Shown here: one piece after another, positions 390 to 61,758 of the stretch | How positions within the stretch are numbered: the first letter of the stretch is position 1 | Layout: every line of letters begins with the position of its first letter | Assembly: GCA_009869945.1 (NCBI GenBank) | Contig: WIXG01000116.1 | Location: forward strand, 62,001 to 126,000 | Source: Mesaphorura yosii | Taxonomy: Eukaryota; Arthropoda; Collembola; Poduromorpha; Tullbergiidae | Length of the DNA stretch: 64,000 bases | Reading direction: 5' to 3' | Position numbers and translations under genes: made by a program | Notes under the pieces: generated by a model | Database searches by the model: none | Told to the model about the DNA's origin: nothing | Seen by the model: the letters and a program-made list of their open reading frames with translations, nothing else

Positions 390-2131
390 CTTTCGATTCG
401 AATATCGCGTTCTGTAACCAGTAAAACATCGCTTTTGTGAAGTCTGAACGAACTTGATGTTATTATTGAGGCCATAAGTGCCTTCCCTTTATCATCATGC
501 TAATTTGAGTCTCAAATATTATGAGTAGATTAGAATTTAAATTATTTGTCATTTCATTTATAATCGTAATTTGTAAACCATTTACTCGTTTAATACGATA
601 GTACGAATAACTCGGTAATGGTATACACGGTTGTATAATTGTGAATGATAACGCAAGACTTTCGGATACGTCAAATTTTATCATTAATTTATTTGTAGGC
701 GTTAAATTATACAGATTTTATACAAGAATTATTAATCCTGGAATGGAGCGGAAGGAATTATTAATAAAATATTCCATTTACTTCAAATTTATGACGTTTT
801 TGTTATTCATTTTCATTTTTCACACTACTTTCACACGCAGCGTCGAGAGTTCTGTTCTGTATTCAGTGAACCTTACAAACCTCAGCATGACCTACAATAA
901 AGGGAACTTGTGACTAATGAGTGATTCTTAGAGTACAGAGGCTTGCAGTTTCAAATTTCATTTTCTATTTTGGAATCCCATTGTAATTTGAACTCGGCTA
1001 GAGTTCATCATGCGTAACGAGTAGCGAGAACGAACTGACTATTTAATGTAGTTTGCTTGTTTACATCTTCAGCTAGATAACCCGAGAGATGAGAGCGCAT
1101 ATCGCCTCGGAAAACCTGGAAACGCTGAATCGAAAGATTTTTCTGGAACATACAACGTGCAGGTTTCCTGACTTCATTCGTCGATTCGCCGGGAATTAGA
1201 AGTCGTAATCGGAGGGATTGAACTTAGGAATTCCACGACAACAATAAGTGGGGTAACCTGGAAATGCAGAAGCAATAGGTCTATTCAGCTTGGGTCTTTT
1301 CCCTGACATATCACCGGATGAAAACTGTGACGACGAAGATGCAGGAAATATCTGCGAAATTGTGATCTTGATCATGTTGGCAGTGGCAATAAGCAGACAT
1401 CCGCAAAACCTGCAAACTTAAAGGTTTCTTGCTCTTTCTTGTCCTGCAACAAGCTGAAATTGCAACTCTTTTGGACATGCAAACTCTGTGTGAACGAATC
1501 CTGGATTGAAATCCAGACAATGAGCCGTTGAAGAAATTTAACGAATTAGATATTTGTTAATTACCATCCGTGGGCTTAATGGGCGGTTTTGTTTGTACAC
1601 TTCGAAGATTGATGATGGATCCGGTAAATTGGTAAATACATACTACAAACGGTTGGATATTTCCCAAACAAATACACATTAGTTTTGTTCGGTTGAATGG
1701 CTGAGTTGCAGAGTGAGCAAAATATGTTTGGTATTGAATGGGAGCCCAGTAACTGACAAGATAAGATAATCACAACGAATGGATTAGTTTCTCTTTCTTA
1801 TATGGCCTTCAGTTGTTTGCACATTGGACCGACACAAAGTGATGTACTCACAATTACAAAATCACATATTGAAATGCCGCAAACAGCAAAACTGTACAGC
1901 TTATGAATGAATGAGCACCACTTGGCAATCTGGACCAATTCTAATTAAATTACACTGATTTACAATTTGCTGATAGCTGGCTTGTACGGAATTCCTCATT
2001 TGACCGTGGTTAAGTAATAAATAGCCGCACTTTTCCGTAACGGATCCTCACAACCACGATTCTACGTATAAACTCGTGGTTACCTTGTGGTAGGGTCCTT
2101 TTCCGAAGGCGGCCACGTACTCAAAAGTAAT
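390..2131. other. Non-coding stretch between the left-edge gene and the glycosyltransferase-like gene
   Basis: AT-rich sequence with only short, unconserved ORFs on both strands. I see no domain, no RNA gene and no obvious repeat. The part just upstream of 2132 probably holds the promoter and 5' UTR of the next gene. The frame of that gene is open back to 2072 without an ATG, so a short spliced leader exon here cannot be excluded. Confidence 0.5.
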
Positions 2132-3601
2132 ATGCCGTGGTGTTCCTTCAAACGATGTTTTGGTGCCCGAGAGTTTGACCTTGCGAGTTCACCTCCATCC
2201 ATTCAGACACAAGGAATCATTCCAACAAATGCAAGGTTCGAGGAAGAAGACAGGACTTCCTTTTTCGTCATCACGGCCATCTTCAACCCTGCCTCCTTTA
2301 AGTCACGGTATGACTTGTACCACAAATTCGCCCGCCACATGGAAGAGTGCGGGGCACAGCTTATCACCATCGAGTGCATATTCCCGATCTTGAATCAGAA
2401 CAATTTTCAAGTGACTAGCGCTCAAAATCCACACCACATTCAACTAAAATCGAAGAGCGTTTACTGGGTCAAGGAGTCACTCATCAACATCGCCGCGAGT
2501 CGACTGCCAGCTCATGCCAAGTACGTCTGTTGGCTGGACGCGGACATTGAGTTTCACGACCTAGGCTGGATTGAGAGGACGATCGTCCAGTTGCGGGAGT
2601 TCAGCATAGTTCAGATCTTTGAGAAGGCCAACTTCTTGGGCCCGGCCGATGAAGTACTCCGCACTGACTACTCGTTCGGTTACTCGGTGGTGCATGAGAA
2701 GCCCATTGACCAGACACGGTACGACAAATGGTACCCGCACTCTGGCTATGGTTGGGCTACCAGCGTGAGAGCATTCAGACACTTCGGAGGACTGCCTGAT
2801 TACGATATTCTTGGTTCAGGCGACCTGCACTTCGCCTTTTCGCTCTTGGACCGTGTCACCAATGCTCTGGAGGGTGGCCTGAACCCCGAGTTCAAGAATT
2901 TGATTGTGCAGCGGTCAAATCAAACGTACAACCAGTTACACCAATTGAGCAAGCAAGAATCCAAGGCGATGGTTGGTTACGTTCCGCTCACAATTAGTCA
3001 CAACTGGCACGGGTCTAGGAAACATCGCCAATATGTCAACAGATGGAAAATTCTGATCGCGCACAATTTTAGCTACTCGCGGGATACAATTAAAACTGTC
3101 GACGGACTTTTGGAACTTGTCCATGGGCGTCGGTCCGACGAGGACAATGGGAAGCCCTCTCTTCAGGAAGATATAATTGCGTACTTTACAATGAGGAACG
3201 AAGACGACATCGAGTACGAGCTGGAAGACAATTCCATCACTGCGCATAAAAAGAAGAAAAAGAAAAGGCAACAGACGAAAAAGAGAAAGCTCCCTAAATC
3301 AGGTGTCAAATCAACGCATTTTGTTGGAGATTTGGGCTTCGGTTCCGAGTCAGATTCGGGAAGCCACAACCATTCAGGCAATTCAAGTTCGGATTCGGAG
3401 CGCAGCAACCAGTCAAATAACTCTGGCGGCTCTGGACCCGGTACCAGTGAAGGCGACGGTGATCCCAATTCCAGCGAAGAGGGCGGTGATAGAGGTTCAG
3501 ATCTAGGAGCCGATCAGCCGGATGGAGGTACCAATGGCAATGAAGATGCAGGATATGCGCAGGATTACGGCGGAACAATCGAAACTACGTCACAGTATTA
3601 A
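2132..3601 (+). CDS. Glycosyltransferase-like protein, intronless, possible horizontal transfer
   Basis: A single open frame of 489 codons runs from the first ATG at 2132 to TAA. Residues about 43-150 look like the Rossmann-like start of a GT-A-type glycosyltransferase, with the hydrophobic strand FFVITAIFNP and an acidic WLDADIEF motif (D136, D138), which is the kind of DxD metal and sugar-nucleotide site used by that fold. Further on are YGWATSVRAFRHFGGLPD and GSGD (about 206-231), and HNWHGSRKHRQYVNRW (290-305), a signature I associate with glycosyltransferase-like proteins of bacteria and large DNA viruses more than of animals. From about 373 there is a lysine-rich block (possible nuclear signal or charged linker) and then a disordered Ser/Gly/Asn/Asp tail to residue 489. 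There is no signal peptide or membrane segment. Lack of introns beside intron-rich neighbours suggests transfer or retroposition. The substrate is unknown. Confidence 0.6.
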   Translation: MPWCSFKRCFGAREFDLASSPPSIQTQGIIPTNARFEEEDRTSFFVITAIFNPASFKSRYDLYHKFARHMEECGAQLITIECIFPILNQNNFQVTSAQNPHHIQLKSKSVYWVKESLINIAASRLPAHAKYVCWLDADIEFHDLGWIERTIVQLREFSIVQIFEKANFLGPADEVLRTDYSFGYSVVHEKPIDQTRYDKWYPHSGYGWATSVRAFRHFGGLPDYDILGSGDLHFAFSLLDRVTNALEGGLNPEFKNLIVQRSNQTYNQLHQLSKQESKAMVGYVPLTISHNWHGSRKHRQYVNRWKILIAHNFSYSRDTIKTVDGLLELVHGRRSDEDNGKPSLQEDIIAYFTMRNEDDIEYELEDNSITAHKKKKKKRQQTKKRKLPKSGVKSTHFVGDLGFGSESDSGSHNHSGNSSSDSERSNQSNNSGGSGPGTSEGDGDPNSSEEGGDRGSDLGADQPDGGTNGNEDAGYAQDYGGTIETTSQY

Positions 3602-5214
3602 ATTCATTCTAACACGAAAAGACGGTTGTCGACTCTTTAATTTCATAAGACGGCGACAGTGGCGGCGAAATAATTTTTATTGACCAGATTGCTAATACGG
3701 GCTCAGCCGACATAATATCAGCTGTTCAGTTAACTCAGTACCAGTAAAATTCTCAAAACAACCTTTGACATAACCTTTTATGATTATGCTTTTATTCTTT
3801 CAATAATTTCAATTATTCACTTAGCGTGACGTCGGGTGTTAACAATTAACACCAGGATATTCAGCACAAAAGTTTTTTCGATTATTTTCAGTTCGCAATT
3901 CTTAAGTTCAGACGCCTTGCCCAGCACCTTCGCATTTGCGTAAGTCGCGACATTGATGTTGATCGAGATTGGGTTGTTGTTTACAAATTATGCTTCAAGG
4001 ATTCGGCTCGTGCGTACGCACAAGCAGGAGCTTCGTCAACTCGCCACCACGCATAAATACACTGGGAAATTTGATTTGATAATAGTGGGTGCTATCTGGG
4101 CTTGATCTTGTTGACGACTGGCAATCTGTGAATAAGGAAGCTCATCACAAAACATTTTTGACAGATTCAGCAAAGGTTATTTGCTTGGGAAAATTTGTAG
4201 AAACATTAAAATTAGCATGCTCATAAAATTGTTGTACTAAGTATGACTTACAAAGAGCATATGGTCTGGGATCTCCATTCTCACGTGCGATCCTGATTTA
4301 TGATGTGTTGATACATGGCGTCACAAAAATTGAGTACAGAAACCATTCGTGGAATTCGAGGTAGTTTCTTACGCTTTAGAAGTTCAAGTGTGAGAGTTGC
4401 TCAAGGAGCAAAGCCATCGGCCGAGTCACAGGCGCTGAGCTGCGCATGTTTCTTTGCGAACGATGAAACTTGTGCGCCAGCGCTGGCGGCTGAAATTTCC
4501 CAGGTCGAGACTTGCAATGACATTGGCAATGGAAATTACACTCAACAAATTCATGGTCGATGTTTTTTATGAACAATCTGGTCTGACCCTCGCTGGAGTT
4601 GGAATCTTGGCTTGGTTGATCGTCATCATTAGTGTCGTCAGAGAATTCACACACTGCCCAGCGGATTAGGAACTTTATGCGATATGTGTGAAGGTACATT
4701 GTGCAACGATTCGTTAGACTGCTGTTAGACTCACACGAACCGTATTCTTTGAAAATGGCAGTTGTGAGTTTGTGATTGAGACCTTAAATTTAAACTCTGG
4801 CAACGTAGGAAAGAAATATTCTCACGTTTTTGTTACCATTCGGGCTAACGAATACTTTAGTGCCTAAATTGGTCAAGTCTCATTATTTTCTTAATCACGT
4901 TGACAATTCCATTTTTCGAATTATTTCGTGATACGCAGTTGTGACTCGTGGCTGTAATAAATAAGAATTCCAGAGTAGTAAAATTTCATTAACTTCGCGC
5001 ACGAGAATTTCGTCCAACCAGTTAAGGTGCCCGCAAGGTTGACAAACTTCATCCTGACTTCTGTGACACGTTTCTATACTCTGTCCTGCGATTCTACAGC
5101 GAGGAACAAAGCATAAACGTCCACTACAAGTGCAAAAACGTTCAGTTCCTTCTGCCGTGCATCAATTTTCTGCAACTTGCAACTAGCTGGTTAAATTACA
5201 ATACTAATTCCAAC
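3602..5214. other. Intergenic region with small unsupported ORFs
   Basis: No recognisable gene. Overlapping short ORFs lie at 4315-4669; one plus-strand frame (up to 4669) contains a hydrophobic stretch resembling a membrane helix, but nothing else supports it. The last few hundred bases are presumably the promoter and 5' UTR of the terpene synthase that starts at 5215. Confidence 0.4.
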
Positions 5215-6601
5215 ATGTCACCGCCGCTAAATTCAATCGATTTGGTTGCCCAAGTTGATCTGGGTCATGTGCTGGATTCGATCTCTGGACAAAAGGTGCA
5301 TCTTCAAGCAAGTATTCCGCTAATTCTGCCAAAAGGAGGTTTTCAACAGCCGAACCAAGAGCAGTTCTTCAAATCAGACATGTCATGGCTTACAAGTTGG
5401 ATGAAACAGTCCGGCTTTATCCGTGTTGAGTCTGACGAAGAGGAACTTTTGGAGAAAGTTAAGGACTCGCTCAGTTGCTGCTGCTTCACGATGCCAAACT
5501 TCATGCTGACTGACAACGTTGTGAAGGACGAAATGAAAATTTACGTTATCTTCATGGTGGAGTCATTACTGCTTGATGATTTGGCCGAGACGACGAATAT
5601 TTTTGGGAGCGGTTCCACGGGCAGCTCGCGGTCGCTTGAGTATTCTAAAATAATGCTGGATATACTTCAAGGTAAGTGAAGATTCATCGGGGTTGAGGGT
5701 TGAGGTATCACAGTTCGTAATACCCAGTGTACACTGAAAGGCTTATGGATTTTAAACAGGGAAGTACAAATGGATGTCTCTGCCGAAAACCTATCCCGTC
5801 CTGAAACCTTTCCTGAAAGGCGGGTTTCTCTTCTCAGAATTCGCACATAAAGTAGTGCCGGACTTTCGGAATGACTGCGTGCACTTCGCAAGAGGCTGTT
5901 CACGTTCACTGGAAGCTACCCAACTCCTCCAGGCCGAAGCAACCAAGTTAAACGGCGGAACAGGAACCGTTAAGGAGAATGGAACCTGTGAAAGCAAACA
6001 CACTCCTGTTCCAGAACAGCATGTCGACTCCAGACAAGAACGTTGGGGCATCAACGAGCAGACATTCGAATACCTCCGGGAATTTGATTCTGGCGCTCTC
6101 TTCGTCATCGAACTCATGGCTGTACTTTCGGGTATCACCGTTTCGGACACCGTACGCGACACGCTTTACTTCCGCCGCATGATGAATCTGGCCTCTTCCA
6201 TCGGCACGCACCTTAATGATATGATTGGGATCCGTCGTGACGTTGCATCAGCAAAAGAATCCTCTAACTTCAATTGCATTCTTTATCGCGTGACACAGTA
6301 CAAACAGAATCTCCTGTCTTCATTCGAGAAAACCGTCCGCAGAGTCCAGGCTGACGTGCACGAGTTTAAAGTTATCTGTGACAAACTGAGGACACTGAAC
6401 CCGAAAAACCGCAGACTGGATCAGTTTATTCACATTGTTGAGATGTACCTGGATGGGACAACGTACTGGTCACTGCAAACTGTCCATCGGTACGACGTTC
6501 AGGGTACAACGATTACAGAAGTCATTACAAATAGCGAGACAGGTGCTCCGGACGTGTCCGTAATCCAAGAATCATTGAAGTCGGTATTAATTATCGAGTA
6601 G
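5215..6601 (+). CDS. Class I terpene synthase (microbial-type motif set)
   Basis: Two exons, 5215-5671 and 5760-6601, join in phase to give 432 residues. The motifs of class I terpene synthases appear in the right order: an acidic DDLAE (D121, D122, E125) at the end of a hydrophobic helix, in place of DDxxD; a YLREFDSG segment near 258-265 that matches the diphosphate-sensing Arg region; an NSE-type triad NDMIGIRRD (N305, D306, with Gly and Asp at the Ser/Thr and Glu positions); and a C-terminal RY pair (R396, Y397) after YLDGTTYWS, about 92 residues beyond the triad. Such enzymes ionise an allylic diphosphate (C10-C20) with Mg2+ and release hydrocarbons or alcohols. No transit peptide is evident, so it is likely cytosolic. 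The prenyltransferase 3 kb downstream could supply substrate. A loop of about 40 residues (210-250) is unusually polar. A poly(A) signal lies at 6657-6662. Product unknown; family assignment is by motif only. Confidence 0.72.
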
Positions 6602-7499
6602 TTAGACAAGATTAGAATTAGAGGAATTATTCGTAGAATTTCATTGTTTTTTGCTAAATAAATCCATTACCTTTTTGTTGAAGAGCGTTTTCAACCGTCA
6701 TGTTTTACGTAAATGCCCTGATTACTCACTTAATGCGATCAACACTCTTGTTCGTCCGCAATCAAGTCATTCTTCTCCGTTGATTTTATCACCAATATTC
6801 GTCATATAGGCCAAAATAAAAGTGCATGAGGGCAAATAGAAAACAATGTACAATAAAAAGCATCTTCTATTCGAATGCTCCCAGGACGTGTTCTCTTTAG
6901 TTTTTAAAGCACATCTCATGTTCTCAAACACGCACGAGAACAGGGATTTTGAGGAAATTCATATAATTGGAAATTGCCTCACCATTTTCTTTACTACACA
7001 TGTTTACATTGAATGGAAGCCTCCCGCTGTTGGGTCCTCCTTTCTGTAATAATGGTCATTAATCTCGTTAAGTTGGTGTGGGGTCATCTGGAAAGTTTCT
7101 GTTTATCGCAAGCGCCGTTTCCCATGTAGCACTCGAACTTGCACGGAGCTCCGATTTTGCTACGAACCTACACAACGAGTTGCGTAACTCTTTCTGAAGT
7201 TCAACGGAGTCACGGAAATTATGTGAGATGGAAGGTCCTCTGCGTAGTTACAAAATATTTCATTTAGACGGCTAATAATACGAGGACGCCATTTTGAGCT
7301 CATAGCGCGCTGCGCTTAAACTGAAGCTTATTGCTTTTGCAGCGAATGACAAACAATTCAGTTGGCTAGTCAAACTTGAAGCGACAACACCTTTCTTGTA
7401 TTAGACATTATATTCAATTCCAAAAACGATAATTTTAGTTCTCCGCGTTGCGGAGCAAGCGCCTCGCGCTTATATTATACAGCAATAACCAATAACAAA
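6602..7499. other. Intergenic region between terpene synthase and exonuclease-like gene
   Basis: Holds the 3' UTR and AATAAA (6657-6662) of the terpene synthase, then about 850 bases without a supported gene. Short GC-rich hairpins at 7304-7471 are listed separately. Confidence 0.5.
7304..7471. repeat. Three compact triloop inverted repeats
   Basis: Three short perfect inverted repeats with 3-nt loops lie in this otherwise AT-rich stretch: AGCGC/GCGCT at 7304-7316, CTCCGC/GCGGAG at 7441-7455 and AAGCGC/GCGCTT at 7457-7471. The last two are one base apart. They lie just past the stop codon of the minus-strand exonuclease-like gene, so they would fall in its 3' UTR. Function is unknown; they may be remnants of a small mobile element or RNA structures near the 3' end. 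Confidence 0.5.
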
Positions 7500-8234
7500 T
7501 CAGCTCTTCCGTGATCTCTTACGACGCGCTGCTCTAATTTTCGCATTCAGCTCTACCATTTTGGGTTCATCGTCAAAGTCAACATATCTTTCGAGGTAAG
7601 AACACATTCTATGCATATCGTACTCGACAAATTCTTGCAGTTTGGGCTTGAGTTTTAAAGGCAGGATTTCTTGGAATAATTTCGCAGTGTAAAAAGCGTC
7701 GATTTCTGGATCGTGCGTCGCTGACTGAATGTCCACGTCAAAGAATTTCATGCAAAGACATCTCAAGCTAATTGGCTCAAACGAGAAGGCGTGCTCCTCG
7801 TCTCCCATTGGTAAGATTATTGTTTTTTCATTCAGAGTTTTGTAGAAGTGGAAGTGCAAATTGTAAACAGTAATTCCAATTGCGTCAAGGTTTAGACTTA
7901 TCAGATCTTTGTATGAATTCAGCTTTCCATTGTCTCCTCCTACCAAAATAACTAACTTGCCGCCGATCAAATCTTGCACCTTTTCTGTGACTTCTTCCAA
8001 TTTTGGGAATGTGGAGTTAGCTAGCGAATGTGGCAGGAATCCGTTGCATTTGATGGTGGATGAATTTGTCTGGAAGCTATTGGCTACGTGGTAAATATTT
8101 GTCTTGTAAACTGTCTTCCTGTTGTGGTCAACTAACGCAACTGACCCGCAATCGAGGGTGCTATTATTCTTCGTCACAGTCCTGGTACAGATAATTTGTA
8201 GGAAAGTAGTTTTCGAAGCCCGAGCCAGGAGCAT
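7500..8234 (-). CDS. Degenerate DEDDh exonuclease-like protein
   Basis: A minus-strand frame of 244 codons begins at ATG 8232-8234, just after an in-frame TGA, and ends at 7500. It resembles the RNase-H-fold 3'-5' exonucleases: a strand with GSVALVDHNRKTVY (compare 'vsvVd.dG.vvyd'), a central KLVILVGGDNGKLNSYKDL (compare the Exo II region), and a final HDPEIDAFYTAKLFQEI that fits the Exo III HxxxxD pattern. However, the first acidic pair looks broken (LDCG where families have LDCE), and the Exo II Asp is not evident. So only the last motif is intact, and the protein is probably inactive or has lost an N-terminal exon. It lies between the terpene synthase and the prenyltransferase on the opposite strand. 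A lysine/arginine-rich end (RRKRSRKS) could be a nuclear signal. The family call is tentative. Confidence 0.45.
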   Translation of the reverse strand: MLLARASKTTFLQIICTRTVTKNNSTLDCGSVALVDHNRKTVYKTNIYHVANSFQTNSSTIKCNGFLPHSLANSTFPKLEEVTEKVQDLIGGKLVILVGGDNGKLNSYKDLISLNLDAIGITVYNLHFHFYKTLNEKTIILPMGDEEHAFSFEPISLRCLCMKFFDVDIQSATHDPEIDAFYTAKLFQEILPLKLKPKLQEFVEYDMHRMCSYLERYVDFDDEPKMVELNAKIRAARRKRSRKS

Positions 8235-9590
8235 AGTCGTTCATTGGGAATCGAATCCAGTCTTCCGGTGGGACAGCTTTGGACCTACGATTAGCCAACC
8301 ACCAACGCCTTTCCACTCGACGGCGGAGGTCCGTAGATGATACGCGTAGCGACGTCTTTGACCTTCGTAGTCTCGCATTTGGTTGTGCATTAGAAAGTAC
8401 TTCGAGAATACGCCGGGGCTACCTGAGTCACTTCACCGACTTCCTGTGGATACTCGCAACTACACAATTCGACCTACTTGGTCGGTTCGTAGTATGTTTA
8501 CATGGGATTGTACACGAGCACGACCCCAAGATAATAATGAACTCATGTTTGGCCGATTCCGATTACCGATTATAATGGCTTTATTTGGCAAACTCTGAAA
8601 ATTTCAACATCAGACTGCAAAACAAGAATGGGTAGCATAAATTTTCCATTAATTTAATCAAAAGCGCTTGATTCTCGATTATCATTAAAAAGTGGCTATT
8701 TTGGTTTCATAAGAGCTGATTAATGCTGAAGATAGTGAACTGCCATTTCCAGATGTTTTCCCTTCGGATTATAAAATTGAGAAGATTATTCAGACGAAAA
8801 TCACGGATTGCCATTCTCGATGATATCGTTTGCGGTCAAATTAGGTTTAATGTTGATCGCCTTTTTATTGTTTTATCTCTCCATACACAAAAGGGAAGTG
8901 ATGCGCTAAGTGCAGCGCTAAATATATTGCTGATATGACTTTGTTCTGTTCTCACATATTCTCAAGAACAAATTAAAAACAAATACGCTTTTTAAGTGGG
9001 GATTACTCCTTTTTTGCTCGACATTTTGTCATTACTTGGCCCGTCGACGTATTTCCAGCTGCCCCAGTCACACTTGCGTACAAGAGCCGTGAGAAAACTG
9101 CACCATATTTTAAAGAATTCTATAGTATGAAAGCCACTCTTATTATGGGGCTTTTGACTTGTACCTGAATTTGAGTTGGAATTCATTAGTATGATGTACT
9201 ATCCGCGTCATTTTCCTCTGGTGTTTATCGATCTAATTGCAACGTTGGCGACTTTTCTCACAATATTAATTGTACGAGTCAAAGTTGATGAAAAAACTTG
9301 CCTCACGAAGAGTGGCACATGTATGAGAGATTTCGACACAGCACAGGAAATTCAGTTAGTGTTCGCCTAGCCTGTTCGTTTATGATCGTCTAGTCTGGGA
9401 TTTCCATATAGTAAAGCACGCTAATCAGCGGTATTCACAGTCTTGAGCTTCTGTCATTTAAGGAGCTCCAACGCGCTAACCTTTACTTAGTCTTTGACTG
9501 GAGTTCGGCTGAAGCGTTTACAAATTCAAAATTTGTTAGCGCACATTTTCTATTTGCCACATTGTAACGTTCCGTCAGAAAAAACTCAGA
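8235..9590. other. Intergenic region upstream of the prenyltransferase
   Basis: No supported gene. Short ORFs on both strands (for example near 8992-9370) lack family resemblance. The region separates the divergently oriented exonuclease-like gene and prenyltransferase, so it should contain both promoters. Confidence 0.45.
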
Positions 9591-10972
9591 ATGTCTCTAG
9601 TCGACGAAAACGATAACTGTAAAGAGTTCAGTGAGCGCAAAGAGTTTACCATGATGCAGCAGGAGATGGAAGACTCCTGGGTAGATATCGTGGACGAGCT
9701 CACGAACGACGCTCAATTCAAGGACATGCGGAGATCACTGGACTGGCTGAAGATTTTGATGGACGTGAATGTGCCAGATGGCAAGAAATATCGGTGAGTT
9801 GTTTAATTTAATGCATAAATTCATCTGCACACAGCAGCAAAAATTTAAACTGGCATTTCTTTACAGCGGACTCGCATGTCTGAAATTTTATCGTGAAATC
9901 ACGAAGAATTCGAAGCATTCGCCCGAAGACGACCACTCAGCCATCATCATGGCTTGGTGCCTCGAAATTCTGCAGAGTGCCGCCCTCATTGCAGATGACA
10001 TGATGGACCAGAGCCGGACTCGTCGCGGAAAGCCCTGCTGGTACTTGGTCGAGGGTGTTGGAACAACAGTCATCAACGACGTGCTCCTACTGGAGAGCGT
10101 CGTAAATCGCCTGATCGACAGACACATCACAAAACCATCGCATTACATTGCTATCATGAAACTACTCCACGACACGACAATACGAACACTTCTTGGCGAA
10201 GGTCTTGACACGAAAATGGGCCAAGAGGAAGTTGACCTCAAGAAGTAAGTTCCTCTATTTCGTAAGACTCATGGACTCCAGACCAGTGCCCAGACTTCCT
10301 GTACTAATCTCGCACGCACAATTCCAGGTTCACCTTCGACATCTACAAGTCAGTCGTAGAGTACAAAACTTCTTACTACACATTCTATGCCCCCGTTGCA
10401 ATTGCGATGATTCTGGTAAGTGTTCGTAATTATCGTAATCCTTTGACAAGATTTTATAGGAAGAAATCAGAACAATAATACTTACTTCATTTTACAGGCC
10501 GGCAGAACAAAAGAGGAAGACTATAGCATTGTGAAGAAAGTCCTGCTTCAAATCGGCTACCTTTTCCAGATTCAAGATGACTTTCTCGACTGCTACGGTG
10601 ATCCAGAAGTTACGGGGAAAATTGGGACTGACATCGAAGAGGGCAAATGCACATGGCTGATTGTTCAAGCTAAACAACTTGCTTCGAAGGATCAGCTGCA
10701 AATGCTGCAGGTAAAAAGATCAAAGGATTTTTCTTACAACGGGGCAAAAATTCAATGATTATTCTTTACATCCTTAGGAAATTTATGGAGACCCTTCACA
10801 AGCACACATGGTCAAAAAAATTTACTCTGAACTGCGCATTGCTCAACACTTCAACAAAGTCGAAGACAATTTGTACAACGAAATCAGCGAAAGTATTGAG
10901 CAGCTTCCGATAACCAACATGAAGGACCCCATGTATCATATCCTCAATTCGGTTTACAGACGCGATCATTAG
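9591..10972 (+). CDS. Isoprenyl diphosphate synthase (FPPS family, predicted long-chain product)
   Basis: Five exons (9591-9793, 9867-10244, 10328-10415, 10498-10710, 10778-10972) close in frame to 358 residues, the normal size for farnesyl diphosphate synthases. It condenses isopentenyl diphosphate with allylic diphosphates. Both aspartate-rich motifs are intact: DDMMD at 111-115, followed by [10 protein letters not shown], and DDFLD at 250-254, preceded by YLFQIQ. Also present are [17 protein letters not shown] and the [11 protein letters not shown] lysine region. The two residues five and four before the first motif are both Ala (106, 107), where FPP synthases carry bulky Phe/Tyr. By the established chain-length rule this opens the pocket, so GGPP or a longer product is more likely than FPP. 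No mitochondrial presequence is obvious. It sits between two terpene-synthase-fold genes on the same strand. A poly(A) signal lies at 11094-11099. Confidence 0.88.
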
Positions 10973-11987
10973 AAGAATACATCACAGCACCTTAAACAGC
11001 TCAACGCAGTGAATTGTGAAATAGTCGGTCATTTTTATACATTAAACGAGTAAATTAATTATTTAACACGATTTCTTTATCCTAAAAAAGGCTAATAAAT
11101 CATATACGTGGAATAAAGAAAGCAAGTGATTAAAACCTTGAACTCATTAGTGACCTCATGAATCTTGTGCTTCATTTCCGTCGAACGCCCGGTTCGGTGG
11201 GTCGATTTCCGGAACAGTCAGGTCAGAATTACATGAAACCTAACGCGGGCATAAATATCTCACACAGAGATCGGTTTCCAACCAAGGGATTCGAGACGTC
11301 AAAACACTTTTGTCAGGCCTGGGCGGAGTAGTGAGTTTTCCAGAAGGTTTCAAATTCCCAACAATGTTCTACAATTATTTAAGGTGAAGGGTGCCAAGAT
11401 GATGTGATGCCGTGCAAAACTCTAGTAAATAACTCAAATTCCCAGATTGATTGTGAGTTTTCACACGGTCATTATTGTAGTCATATAACAGTGCCAACTG
11501 TGAGCTATTCAGCGCGGCGCGGCACGGCGCATGCGCGTATGCGTGCCGATCGAATGTCGAACGTTCACAGTTGCACTTGCGCAAGACGTTGCCCAACATT
11601 CCGAGTGTTCTTCACGCGTCTCGCAATTCTCACGACCGTGCGCAAATTAGACGCGTGAACGGTGATCTTTCGTGACATTCAACTGCATTGAGGCGTTTAT
11701 CCACGTCCTTGGCCCTGACCGAATTCTAATTTTTGTTGTTTCCTAGATCGTGATAGCATGAATGACGGCTTGTAGTACAGTTAGCGCTGATTGGATGTGT
11801 GTGGCACTTCCTACTTTGGCAGTACACGTCATAGACTATCTCTCTCTGCATCTCACACGTCACACATTCTGTTAGTTTCTAGGAAAGGCGAGCAGTTGAA
11901 GTTCTTATTTTCCTTCGACCGGATCAGTGCACGCGTCAGTGCAGCCTCAAGAACAGTGATTTCTAAATTCCGCGCTAGGCTTCCCAC
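10973..11987. other. Intergenic region and 5' UTR of the second terpene-synthase-fold gene
   Basis: Contains the prenyltransferase 3' UTR (AATAAA at 11094-11099) and then a region with a GC-rich island around 11510-11545, described separately. No further gene is supported. Confidence 0.5.
11527..11536. promoter_or_regulatory. NRF-1-like palindrome GCGCATGCGC
   Basis: A perfect 10-base palindrome in a CG-rich patch, about 450 bases upstream of the ATG at 11988. It matches the core bound by NRF-1 in vertebrates and its insect relative. This is only a sequence match; it suggests a promoter island for the downstream gene or an unannotated first exon. Confidence 0.35.
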
Positions 11988-13076
11988 ATGGCGACTGTTC
12001 CGTTCAATTATGGAAAAATTCAACATCCGACTTATGGAGAGGCGACTGTCACAGGCGAACTTCAATTCGTGTTGCCTCCTGAAAAGTACAAGTACCCAGC
12101 CATCCTAAACGAACCGGACAAGCTGAAGGAAGTCGTTAAGAAGATCTTTCCTACATGCCGGGAGTTGTGGCCGGAATTACTGGATGAAGAAATCAAAGAA
12201 AGGGTGGAGAAGTTTGCGCTAGCCACAGCATTCGTTTTGCCCACGGGCTTGGAGGACGAGCCGGCAAGATTAATAATTTTCTCGCACATATTGCGGGCAA
12301 CTTTCGTGGAATTTGTAAACTCAAACATTTTGGAGGATCCTGACCTACAGGCCGAAGAAGGAGGACCTGCCATGTCGTACAAGGACTTGCTGGGACGTAT
12401 GAAGACTACTGAGCTCAACAATGAAGGCATCGAGAACGCAATTGACGAGATTCCGGCTGTTCTCCCTGAAATCTCGAATCTCAAGAATTTTATCACTAAA
12501 CTTCACACGCAAATGAAGGCACTGCTCCCGGATGCACTCGAAAAGGTGTCGTACGAATCCAGAGTCACGATGCTTCAGGACATTTCTGCAATTTTCATTG
12601 TCAGAGAAATGGAGCAAAGTGGACGCAACTTTTCGTACACTACCCGTGTTGACTTTGACCGGTACATGCAAGGAGTGAAGTCCCAAATAGAATTCCATGC
12701 CATTTGCCTCGAAATTCACCTTACAGCTGATATCCGGAATGACATCCTGTTCATCACGTTGACAAATAATTTTGTGGATATCGTCATGTTTGTGAATTGT
12801 CTTCTCACGCTCCCGAAGACAATTCAGTCCGGGGAAGATGTTGGACCGATAATGCATTTGGTTCAACAAAAACTTACGTTGGAAGAAGCATTAACGCAAG
12901 TGAAAGAATGGCTCAAGGAATCGTACCATGACTACCGCCTCACCGTGGACAAACTGCATGAGGTTTATGGTGAAGATGAAAACATCGCCAAATACATTCA
13001 ACTTCTTGGATACTTTCTGGATGGCTCAACTCATCGATACAAGACTATGAAGCAATGGGCCTTGAACATGGAGTAA
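11988..13076 (+). CDS. Terpene-synthase-fold protein lacking catalytic motifs
   Basis: A single exon of 362 residues. It aligns by eye with the active synthase at 5215-6601: a shared helix at about 90-113, a late segment NNFVDIVMFVNCLLTLPK (260-277) in the place of the NSE triad, and a C-terminal GYFLDGSTHRY (341-351) that parallels YLDGTTYWS of the other gene. Every catalytic position has changed: the DDxxD site reads FVEFV (about 106-110), the sensor Arg region reads YMQGVKSQ (226-233), the NSE triad keeps only one Asp (264), and the RY pair aligns with QW. The fold seems retained while Mg2+ and diphosphate binding are lost, so a non-catalytic role (binding, scaffolding, regulation) or a very divergent chemistry is likely. 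It is convergent with the TPP2 gene, 190 bases away. Identification is by paralogy and is moderate. Confidence 0.55.
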   Translation: MATVPFNYGKIQHPTYGEATVTGELQFVLPPEKYKYPAILNEPDKLKEVVKKIFPTCRELWPELLDEEIKERVEKFALATAFVLPTGLEDEPARLIIFSHILRATFVEFVNSNILEDPDLQAEEGGPAMSYKDLLGRMKTTELNNEGIENAIDEIPAVLPEISNLKNFITKLHTQMKALLPDALEKVSYESRVTMLQDISAIFIVREMEQSGRNFSYTTRVDFDRYMQGVKSQIEFHAICLEIHLTADIRNDILFITLTNNFVDIVMFVNCLLTLPKTIQSGEDVGPIMHLVQQKLTLEEALTQVKEWLKESYHDYRLTVDKLHEVYGEDENIAKYIQLLGYFLDGSTHRYKTMKQWALNME

Positions 13077-59200: not shown

Positions 59201-60531
59201 ACCGATTTAATATGGATGGGTGACACCACAGCGAAAATTCACTCGATGAGGCAAGCCGACTTTAACTTCGAGACATGCAAATTCGCCCTCCAATATTTCA
59301 TTTCTTTTGTCCTTACAGAGTGAACGACTATGGAAAGTTGACTGAAATTGATTTGGAAGCTCAAGTTGGACCATGTGGCGCAATTACCTGCATTGAAGTC
59401 ATTGGCTCCAACCTCGTAGCTGTGGTCGTTTCATCTGGCCGGCTCTTTTTATGCAGTCCAAGCATCAACAATGGACAAGTAATTTCAGAGCTGGGAAACA
59501 ATGCTGTGATTCACTGTTTGGCGTGTCGCACAATAGCAGAAGAGTATGACAAGTTTCACACGTTTAATGAACCATAATTCACAACCGCATGACATGTTTT
59601 ACTATTCATATAGGGAGTTTGAGATTTGGGCCGGTGAGAGAGCTGGTCAAATGACTATCTTCACAATTAAGAACAGCATTGTTGTTCAACAAGAGGCAAT
59701 CAATCACTACGAAATGACATTGGAAGGAGTCCAAGTCCTTATCGTAAAGTCACATCCCAGTCAAGAAGTATTGTTCTCTTACGTTTATCCAGGTAAAACT
59801 CAATCTATTGACACAAGCCAGGATACATGAATAGTCACTTCAAATTATATTCTATCTTTTACGCACAGGAAGCGTGATTTACGGGTGGGACAGTGAAAAT
59901 CGGGAGATGATTGCAAGACTTGACGTGGGTCGTTTGCTTCCGATCAGAGATGTAGGCATGGATGATTTAAGTCAGAAACCTCTCCAGGTGAGACATAAAA
60001 GGAGTCGAATTCCTAGAACTCACTCACAATCAATTTTGTGTTCAGGTTACTTTGATACACACGGCTCCCATGCACATTTACATTGGTACAAATTGGGGCT
60101 TCATCTTCATTACTGACATCAAATATCTGAAACCGCTCACAATTCTACAACCATTCCAAGATGATATTCGTTCTTTCTGGATGTTCCGCTCATTTCCTAA
60201 TGATGTGAATAACCTCAGCAGTAGACGCAGTAGTTTCGCCAGTGCTGCCGGCAGCGAAGTGGGGAGGTCCGAGGACCAGCGCGAAACGGCCACACCGAGT
60301 CCAAACCCGAACAGCAGTAAGAGAAAGTCTGACTCTGTTGATATTACCGAAAACGAAAATCCTGCTACATTCTCCAATTCTGATGATATTGGCATTGATC
60401 TCAACCAACTCGTGATCGTACTCGGCAAAGGGTTTTCCAGTATTATCAACCAAAACGCAGTGGATGATCAACGACGCAAGCGGATATTTGGTATTCTATG
60501 GAAAATTAATTCTAATTCTTCATGGAACTGA
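50282..60531 (+). CDS. Lrrk: LRRK1-type ankyrin-LRR-Roc-COR-kinase-WD40 protein
   Basis: About 33 exons close in frame to roughly 2643 residues. Order: ankyrin repeats (about 25-460), leucine-rich repeats (about 530-1050), Roc GTPase with P-loop GVAGIGKTT (bases 54380-54406) and RTWDFGGQ, COR (about 1330-1880), kinase (about 1900-2245) with Gly-loop GRGAFGFVFG, catalytic Lys in IAIKMF, YRDLKSEN instead of HRD and the DYG magnesium site in LADYGISR, then a WD40-like C-terminus. Ankyrin repeats before the LRRs and the LVWSF-DYGISR kinase core point to the LRRK1 branch and its insect orthologue, kinases that act on Rab GTPases at endosomes. Notable: a 26-nt microexon (58443-58468) in the activation segment, a GC-AG intron (59251-59318), a possible 72-nt frame-keeping intron (54651-54722), and a tandem NAGNAG acceptor before 52447. 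AATAAA lies at 60789-60794. Confidence 0.93.
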
Positions 60532-61168
60532 TGCAAAATTGTACCTGACTCATTTTTAGACTATAATTAAGGTAGTAAGTGTTAGTCATGGATTGAGTAA
60601 TTCGTTTCCGGACTCATCGACTTTGAGACTTGAATCGCAAGCGTGCAGTTACCCGGTTCCTTTAATGTAGAAAACATTATGTAGCTTTGTTAATTGTTTA
60701 ACGCACTCTTTTTAATACAATTCATTTAACCATGTCGCATACGAACACAATGTCGATTGTTAAATCCTGTCCATGAACTGATGTGATGAATAAATTCCAA
60801 CGTGAGACTGTTGATTTAACTATTTCTCCGTTCTCGGTTCATGCATGCATCGACAAGACAGACACGGGATGGGGAGGAACGCATTCGTCCACTGTGAATC
60901 TGTGGAGCGTGTACCGAAACCTGAACGAGAATGGCAGCGGAGACGGGTTGCTATGAGATGAGACAAAACAATGAGCTTTCCCATTATTCTGATCTCTTCT
61001 GAATCACGTTCAGTTGTAAGACAAGTTGTCAACCCAGAAATCAATGCTGTCTTGGGCCATGTATGGACAAATCAAGCAGTGTTGCTGAATCTTTGCTTGA
61101 AAAGATTTTATTTGCAATAAGGGACCTTCTATTTTTCCAAAGTGTTAAAATCAGATTAAATCTTCGCC
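60532..61168. other. LRRK 3' UTR and TMEM107 upstream region
   Basis: AATAAA at 60789-60794 marks the likely LRRK transcript end. The rest, to 61168, contains no supported ORF and should hold the TMEM107 promoter. Confidence 0.5.
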
Positions 61169-61758
61169 ATGTTTAAGCACAAAACTACATTCATTTCCGT
61201 CAGGTACATTCTTCTGCTCCTCAATTTCATTCAACTGCTGACAATCATGCTAAGCTCGGTAAGAAACTCAGCCCAAAAAAGGACTAAAACGCCTATGCTA
61301 ATTGCTAATGCTTTCTTTTGTCCCTCCCATTTGTAAATACAGAAACAGCAGCTTCTGGAAATATCACTCCCGTACATGAGCACCAAGGTGGATGAAAACT
61401 CAAGCCACAAAAGCCTAATCGTTAACATTTCATTGAGCATGATGTTTCTGATTTGCGAGTTTCTTACGTTTGGCTCCGGATTCACGATGTTCAGCGACAT
61501 TTGCACTTTACTTTGTATGTTTGACTCAATTAAGTAACTAATTTGAGTTGTGGATCGTGACAATTTCCTTTCTCGTCCTGCTTTTCAGCCATTTTTGGTC
61601 ACTTGCTCGGAAACATTTTCCTGGTGTACTTTTTAAACAGTGGCCTCGACGTTGGACTGCTCTGGTGGATTTTCCCGTTCACGTATTGTCTTCCATTGCT
61701 TGCAGACATTATTTCGACTGTGGCGACGATTTGTTTTGAGGGGATCAAATACAAGTAA
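61169..61758 (+). CDS. TMEM107: TMEM107-like ciliary transition-zone protein
   Basis: Three exons (61169-61258, 61343-61514, 61589-61758) close to 143 residues, the family length. The four-helix layout of TMEM107 is visible: TM1 (YILLLLNFIQLLTIM), a short extracellular loop, TM2 (LIVNISLSMMFLICEFLTF), a GFTMFSDICTLLS segment that matches the family's GVSMFNSTQSLIS pattern, TM3 (IFGHLLGNIFLVYFL) and TM4 (WWIFPFTYCLPLLADIISTV). TMEM107 belongs to the MKS module that controls protein entry at the base of cilia. In an arthropod this would matter only in ciliated sensory neurons and, in some lineages, sperm. Poly(A) signal AATAAA at 61858-61863; convergent with the next gene. Confidence 0.72.

Follow-up and report, generated by a model that had tools for sequence, protein, structure and literature searches.

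The stretch of DNA analysed here (the window) is a 64,000-nucleotide segment from the springtail Mesaphorura yosii, corresponding to positions 62001-126000 of contig C116 (WIXG01000116.1), which is 205 kb long and belongs to an assembly of 93.0 Mb in 1127 contigs (C-numbers denote contigs of this assembly). Three genes lie on the plus strand within about 8 kb (5215-13076) of the window: a predicted class I terpene synthase (gene A), an FPPS-family prenyltransferase (gene B) and a degenerate homologue of terpene synthases (gene C). An earlier note on this DNA, made from the letters alone, had given the coordinates, strand and lengths of this trio correctly. The cluster consists of nuclear animal genes, as indicated by the introns in genes A and B, the length of the contig and the animal-type genes around it. 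In window coordinates, the parts of the three genes are:

5215-5671, plus strand: gene A exon 1, the N-terminal part, with DDLAE at 5575-5589
5760-6601, plus strand: gene A exon 2, with the PF19086 match, Arg259, NDMIGIRRD at 6215-6241 and RY at 6488-6493
9591-9793, plus strand: gene B exon 1 (splice model), GKKYR being completed across the exon 1/2 junction
9867-10244, plus strand: gene B exon 2, with Ala-Ala at 9979-9984, DDMMD at 9994-10008 and a PF00348 match of 86.4 bits
10328-10415, plus strand: gene B exon 3 (splice model)
10498-10710, plus strand: gene B exon 4, with DDFLD
10778-10972, plus strand: gene B exon 5 and stop codon (splice model)
11988-13076, plus strand: gene C, a single intact open reading frame (ORF) of 362 residues, with NSNIL at 12318-12332 and NCLLTLPKT at 12795-12821

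Gene A, a predicted class I terpene synthase

The two exons of gene A are separated by an 88-bp GT-AG intron (donor CAAG/GTAAGT) and encode 432 residues, and downstream of the stop codon there is an AATAAA, at 6657. Exon 2 matched PF19086 (Terpene_syn_C_2) at 27.6 bits, above the cut-off of 23.7, and this was the sole Pfam match listed at E<=10, with filters that drop most matches above E 0.1; exon 1 had no Pfam match by itself. In the family alignment, the Asp-rich motif DDxx(D/E) is present as DDLAE at residue 121 and is followed by Arg259, NDMIGIRRD at residue 305 and RY at residue 396. Arg259 lies exactly 46 residues ahead of Asn305, and a sensor Arg 46 residues before the NSE motif is the spacing typical of microbial enzymes. 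The earlier note had reported DDLAE, NDMIGIRRD and RY as a near-canonical set in microbial motif order, proposed that the gene did not descend from prenyltransferases and suggested a search with profile models; all three motifs were located, and Arg259 and the PF19086 match were added to them.

A profile built from 12 family members matched BcBOT2 (presilphiperfolan-8-beta-ol synthase, PDB 8h6q) at E 1e-15, 7ofl (Copu9) at 4.9e-12 and epi-isozizaene synthase at 1e-8. The C242 relative of gene A was modelled with a predicted local distance difference test score (pLDDT) of 66.7, and the model matched class I terpene synthases (Foldseek E 4.4e-8, target TM-score (TMt) 0.77). Together, the motifs and profile matches support the assignment of gene A as a putative canonical class I terpene synthase of microbial type that is not derived from a prenyltransferase. 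An origin of gene A from an isoprenyl diphosphate synthase (IDS) was rejected, as no PF00348 match was listed for either exon under the same filters. Two scans of GTDB contigs for a microbial donor, one with a three-protein alignment and the other with the C1048 protein alone, yielded no confirmed relative; these were weak scans with patterns that lacked the NSE motif. Among the solved structures that match best are enzymes of fungi and of bacteria, which point to no single donor.

Gene B, an FPPS-family prenyltransferase

The five-exon model of gene B (9591-10972) encodes 358 residues, and the protein matched PF00348 at 232.5 bits. Its GKKYR (GKxxR), DDMMD and DDFLD motifs are all intact, GKxxR being an element that binds isopentenyl diphosphate (IPP). 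The best solved matches were 8a6u, an isoprenyl diphosphate synthase that we take to be from the leaf beetle Phaedon, and the FPPS entries 1ubx and 1fps, which are presumably avian; 1ubx, which we assume to carry chain-length mutations, scored slightly above 1fps (262.4 vs 258.4 bits).

Ala-Ala fills the places five and four residues ahead of DDMMD, and the aromatic residues of the FPPS type are absent there. Among eight aligned FPPS-type loci, these places hold Phe-Phe in C284 and C71, Ala-Ala in gene B and C99, Ser-Cys in C144, Ser-Ala in C242a, Gly-Ala in C242b and Ser-Val in C242c, the last of which has a broken first Asp-rich motif. These two positions before the first DDxxD set chain length, and the avian FPPS mutant F112A/F113S makes longer chains, under C50 (PMC7887238; statements about papers cited by PMC number refer to the parts of them that were available). 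Like this mutant, gene B has small residues at both of these positions, but its Ala-Ala is natural and its product is a prediction. With Ala-Ala replacing the Phe-Phe of synthases that make farnesyl diphosphate (FPP), the product of gene B is likely to be longer than FPP, in keeping with the earlier note, which had placed the gene in the FPPS family and predicted a longer product. A tree of the FPPS-type genes was uninformative on the placement of gene B, which joined the outgroup rows through long branches.

Gene C, a degenerate terpene synthase homologue

The match of gene C to PF19086 (22.6 bits, E 1e-4) falls just below the cut-off of 23.7, so that the profile search called for in the earlier note gave a signal here, yet not one above threshold. 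The AlphaFold model is confident (mean pLDDT 81, predicted TM-score 0.83) and shows the isoprenoid-synthase fold, the absence of which the earlier note had named as grounds for rejecting its reading of the locus. BcBOT2 was the top structural match (Foldseek E 5.6e-7, root-mean-square deviation about 5), and bacterial terpene synthases came next, the highest TMt among the 50 matches listed being 0.75. BcBOT2 is thus the best match of both the family profile and the gene C fold, but identity in the structural match is 12-14% (TMt 0.64-0.70) and gene C lacks the motifs of BcBOT2.

In the alignment, the Asp-rich motif of gene C is NSNIL, the NSE motif is NCLLTLPKT and the RY motif is QW. All three motifs are lost, so gene C should not ionise a diphosphate. 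It retains R250, which is invariant in the family alignment, E235 and, at the NSE position, N270. An Arg (R225) precedes N270 by 45 residues, one off the usual sensor place. Thus, the earlier note's description of gene C as a second gene with the terpene synthase fold held up, whereas its term paralogue needs qualification, as the protein is not close to gene A (14% identity) and is probably non-catalytic. We regard gene C, from its model and motif positions, as probably a homologue of terpene synthases rather than an enzyme.

The terpene synthase family in the genome

Genome searches with PF19086, gene A and gene C gave 9, 16 and 15 matches, respectively, which overlap and fall on 13 contigs in total. 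A Pfam scan of ten paralogues placed seven above the PF19086 cut-off and two below it, and one (C556f) had no match. The tree was built from 14 of the 16 aligned rows, leaving out the long, divergent C581 and C1022; C964 (a weak, partial match), C970 and C959 (broken or multi-exon) stayed outside the alignment. In the tree suggested by the earlier note, genes A and C fall in separate clades. Gene A groups with C556f (88/87) and C242 (94/92), whereas gene C pairs with C349 (96/93), and both belong to a second clade (99/99) together with C246, C980 and C556a-e. C242, C556f and C1048 form long branches, and their placement is less sure.

Both clades are represented in the window and on C556, with opposite members degenerate. 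In the window, the A-type gene has intact motifs and the C-type gene is degenerate; on C556, the A-type gene (C556f) is degenerate and the five C-type genes, one of them (C556a) cut by the contig end, keep DDxxD and NxxxGxxxD. The NSE position reads NDLFGLEKE in C175 and NDLLGLEKD in C242. The sensor Arg is not universal, being missing from the aligned sensor stretch of C556d, C556e, C980, C1048 and C556f.

Several contigs are recorded here as side observations. The terpene synthase ORFs on C1022 and C581 (551 and 625 residues from the first Met) differ from the others in their long N-terminal extensions and NDxxSxGKE motifs. C1048, a contig of 11.7 kb, carries a terpene synthase (DDILD, NDLLSFKKE), a short-chain dehydrogenase/reductase fragment and two cytochromes P450; we did not count it as a cluster because contamination is possible. 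PF14226, used to look for isopenicillin N synthase as a springtail marker, had 12 matches, the best of which (C759) is a full-length intronless 2-oxoglutarate-Fe(II) oxygenase of bacterial look; it carries no information on a springtail origin, and the assembly may contain bacterial contigs. Four matches to the OS-D chemosensory proteins, a mainly pancrustacean family, lie close together at C80:45268-52767. The arginine kinase of the assembly scored 661-684 bits against six PDB entries that we take to be from decapod crustaceans, followed by 627-628 bits for entries presumably from Limulus, 617 for one presumably from a spider and 615 for one presumably from Daphnia; by summed score, two entries matched in two stretches came out above all of these. 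A search for insect odorant receptors had no match, but its prokaryotic controls were equally silent, and COX1 was not found in the assembly (one candidate scored). Taken together, these weak markers point to Pancrustacea and are compatible with a springtail, though they leave room for a mite.

Linkage of terpene synthases and prenyltransferases

The arrangement in the window recurs on two other contigs. In C242:57301-65113, a terpene synthase (60335-61402) lies amid three FPPS-type genes at about 57.3-58.6, 61.5-62.5 and 63.8-65.1 kb. In C556:1-13543, a tandem array of six terpene synthase genes, placed on both strands and including C556f, which has lost every motif, surrounds a cis-prenyltransferase of the DHDDS type. 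The latter is a pair of ORFs (4881-5378 and 5397-5795; PF01255, 59.4 and 85.9 bits) between terpene synthase genes, and the nearest PDB match of its first part is DHDDS (82.9 bits). It was found by reading C556, the genome-wide search for prenyltransferases having been made with PF00348 only; that search gave 22 matches, and a trans-prenyltransferase shares a contig with a terpene synthase on two (C116 and C242) of the 13 terpene synthase contigs. Under random placement, the probability that at least two terpene synthase loci fall within 8 kb of one of eight FPPS-family loci is about 1e-4 for 11 terpene synthase loci and about 3e-4 for 18. These are rough estimates, since the model assumes independence between loci, an assumption that tandem duplication breaks. 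These results support a linkage that is more frequent than expected by chance and not confined to the contig of the window, and they bear out the earlier note's observation that substrate-making and substrate-using genes are linked at this locus.

Surroundings of the cluster

Neighbouring genes in the window are animal in type and include the C-terminal domain of TPPII and IMPDH, LRR, C2 and zinc-finger domains (Pfam; in a later scan, five of ten window ORFs were matched). A scan of the window with Rfam gave no match at gathering scores. The trio of the earlier note is present as described, with the correction that a further reading frame stands between genes A and B:

7500-8234, minus strand: 244-residue ORF, a member of a multicopy repeat

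The genome holds 25 matches to this ORF, including itself, nine of them with internal stops, and neither Pfam nor PHROG gave a match at E<=0.01. Given this copy number, we take the ORF to be a repeat that has no part in the pathway. Upstream of gene A, a 504-residue ORF (2087-3601, plus strand) had no Pfam match at E<=0.01 and looks glycosyltransferase-like by eye.

Discussion

What might three such genes do together? We consider it reasonably probable that they form a nuclear animal terpenoid gene cluster in which the product of gene B, a prenyl diphosphate longer than FPP, is cyclised by gene A, and gene C serves as a non-catalytic partner. Gene B would add IPP to an allylic diphosphate and may continue to a product longer than FPP, because it lacks the two Phe residues that stop an FPP synthase. 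Judging from its motifs, gene A would ionise and cyclise a prenyl diphosphate, most simply the product of gene B, by the three-metal mechanism of class I enzymes. Gene C appears to keep the all-alpha terpene synthase fold, would not ionise diphosphates and may have been retained as a partner or binding protein.

Several observations weigh against this pathway. The NSE-type motif of gene A is a variant that has N, G and D in place of N, S and E at the ligand positions, and gene A alone found nothing significant by sequence in the PDB (best E 0.38) and, in NCBIfam, terpene synthase models below their cut-offs (best E 5.7e-4, 19.2 of 500 bits). The predicted product length of gene B rests on two residues, and a multicopy repeat is interposed between genes A and B. 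A search for cytochromes P450, in which 92 of 306 candidates were scored, gave 111 matches, with none on C116, C242 or C556 and two on C1048, and so brought up no tailoring gene near the cluster. In codon usage, genes A and B correlated weakly with a host sample of small size (r 0.36 and 0.30, against 0.54 for gene C), which we take as uninformative because gene B is itself an animal-type gene.

An alternative explanation is that the linkage is incidental, the terpene synthases and FPPS-type genes having been duplicated locally so that they became neighbours without sharing a pathway. Local duplication is evident in the tandem terpene synthases of C556 and the tandem FPPS-type genes of C242, and the repeat between genes A and B, together with the small share of terpene synthase contigs that hold a trans-prenyltransferase, fits this explanation as well. 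However, the association spans three contigs and two unrelated prenyltransferase families, and the two FPPS-type cases are improbable under random placement, so that we judge incidental linkage to be unlikely, though the strongest of the competing explanations.

It is also conceivable that gene B, rather than supplying substrate, acts as a terpene synthase of the IDS-derived arthropod kind. Insect terpene synthases arose repeatedly from duplicates of FPPS or GGPPS (PMC13143122), and the comparison above includes eight FPPS-type loci, gene B among them. Gene B nevertheless keeps both Asp-rich motifs and GKxxR, whereas its paralogue C242c is broken in the first Asp-rich motif, and a synthase role for gene B is therefore rather improbable.

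Similarly doubtful is the idea that gene C is a pseudogene that has yet to acquire its first stop codon. The loss of all three motifs would be expected of such a gene, and neither AATAAA nor ATTAAA occurs in the 164 bases after its stop codon; against this stand the intact frame of 362 codons, the confident fold and the retention of R250 and E235. We also simulated neutral change in the coding sequence, starting from the present gene C sequence and ignoring insertions and deletions. A change in at least 9 of 11 motif residues came after about 790 substitutions, by which time all 300 runs had acquired stops (a minimum of three stop codons), and none of the 300 had reached such motif change without one. 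Since the frame of gene C is intact, long neutral decay is unlikely, and we favour the view that gene C has been kept as a non-catalytic partner or binding protein over that of a pseudogene in decay. That gene C is instead still an active enzyme with different chemistry is the least probable alternative, since the kept fold, N270 and an R225 placed 45 rather than 46 residues before it are set against the loss of the Asp-rich motif as well as of the third NSE ligand.

A more elaborate version of the proposed pathway, in which gene B, gene A and gene C act together, can be imagined, and we hold it as speculative and improbable in its entirety. The cluster would encode an animal pathway devoted to long terpenes with cyclised heads, of the poduran type found in springtail cuticles, in which a sesquiterpene-like ring system carries a long isoprenoid tail, with gene B as an FPPS-derived long-chain synthase and gene A as a non-squalene long-chain cyclase that has a dead partner of terpene synthase fold. 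The A-type and C-type proteins might then descend from an old two-subunit synthase in which either partner can keep the active site, an idea that arises because an intact gene A stands with a degenerate gene C in the window and intact C-type genes stand with a degenerate A-type gene on C556.

Canonical arthropod terpene synthases are reportedly the subject of a 2024 PNAS paper by Chen et al., and terpene biosynthetic gene clusters of octocorals are said to be that of Scesa et al. 2022; a 2025 paper is likewise said to be titled on a metazoan metabolic gene cluster family. Laterally acquired terpene synthase families occur in trombidid mites (Dong et al. 2018, PMC6275457), one cluster holding 39 and 21 members, and the same paper calls the terpene synthases of the springtail Folsomia candida more similar to those of flea beetles. 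Five fungus-gnat terpene synthases, apparently from mites, are credited to Chen et al. 2024 PNAS by a citing paper (PMC12051294), and two terpene-related antiSMASH clusters are given for F. candida (PMC5490193). The genes of M. yosii resemble the mite and other canonical arthropod synthases in being microbe-type class I enzymes in nuclear genomes, in expanded families and with low identity to microbes. They differ in having FPPS-type neighbours and degenerate members with intact frames, neither of which was found described in the available part of PMC6275457.

Octocoral terpene cyclases also occur in gene clusters, one of them beside P450s (PMC11784711), and, as in the present case, the cyclase is encoded by the animal and clustered in its genome. 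The neighbour in M. yosii is instead a prenyltransferase, and among the candidates scored none of the P450 matches fell on its contig. The IDS-derived synthases of arthropods, such as those of termites (PMC13143122), are similar in that FPPS-family duplicates take part in terpenoid biosynthesis, but genes A and C, unlike them, have no PF00348 match. Canonical arthropod terpene synthases and animal terpene clusters are thus not new as such, and the claim of the earlier note that this kind of locus is rare among animals is weakened by the mites (PMC6275457) and octocorals (PMC11784711). What is new here is the recurrent linkage of terpene synthases with prenyltransferases and the presence of both clades in the window and on C556 with opposite partners degenerate. 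In the available parts of the open-access literature, subscription papers being mostly outside the scope, no arthropod cluster of a terpene synthase with a prenyltransferase and no pairing of intact and degenerate terpene synthases was found described.

Higher terpenes were found in the cuticle of 16 of 23 springtail species examined, and they include regular [7]- to [9]-terpenes, of which some, like poduran, bear a sesquiterpene-like ring head (PMC11321324). The authors of that study proposed recruitment from the ubiquinone pathway; the term 'terpene synthase' is absent from the available main text, and no cyclase assigned to the springtail cuticle terpenes was found. If the link to the cuticle holds, a long-chain synthase together with a class I cyclase could give poduran-like chemistry, and genes A, B and C of this springtail are candidates for a cuticular terpene chemistry to which enzymes were not found assigned. 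More generally, the picture of animal terpene metabolism is extended by recurrent linkage between terpene synthases and prenyltransferases and by degenerate terpene synthases that have been retained.

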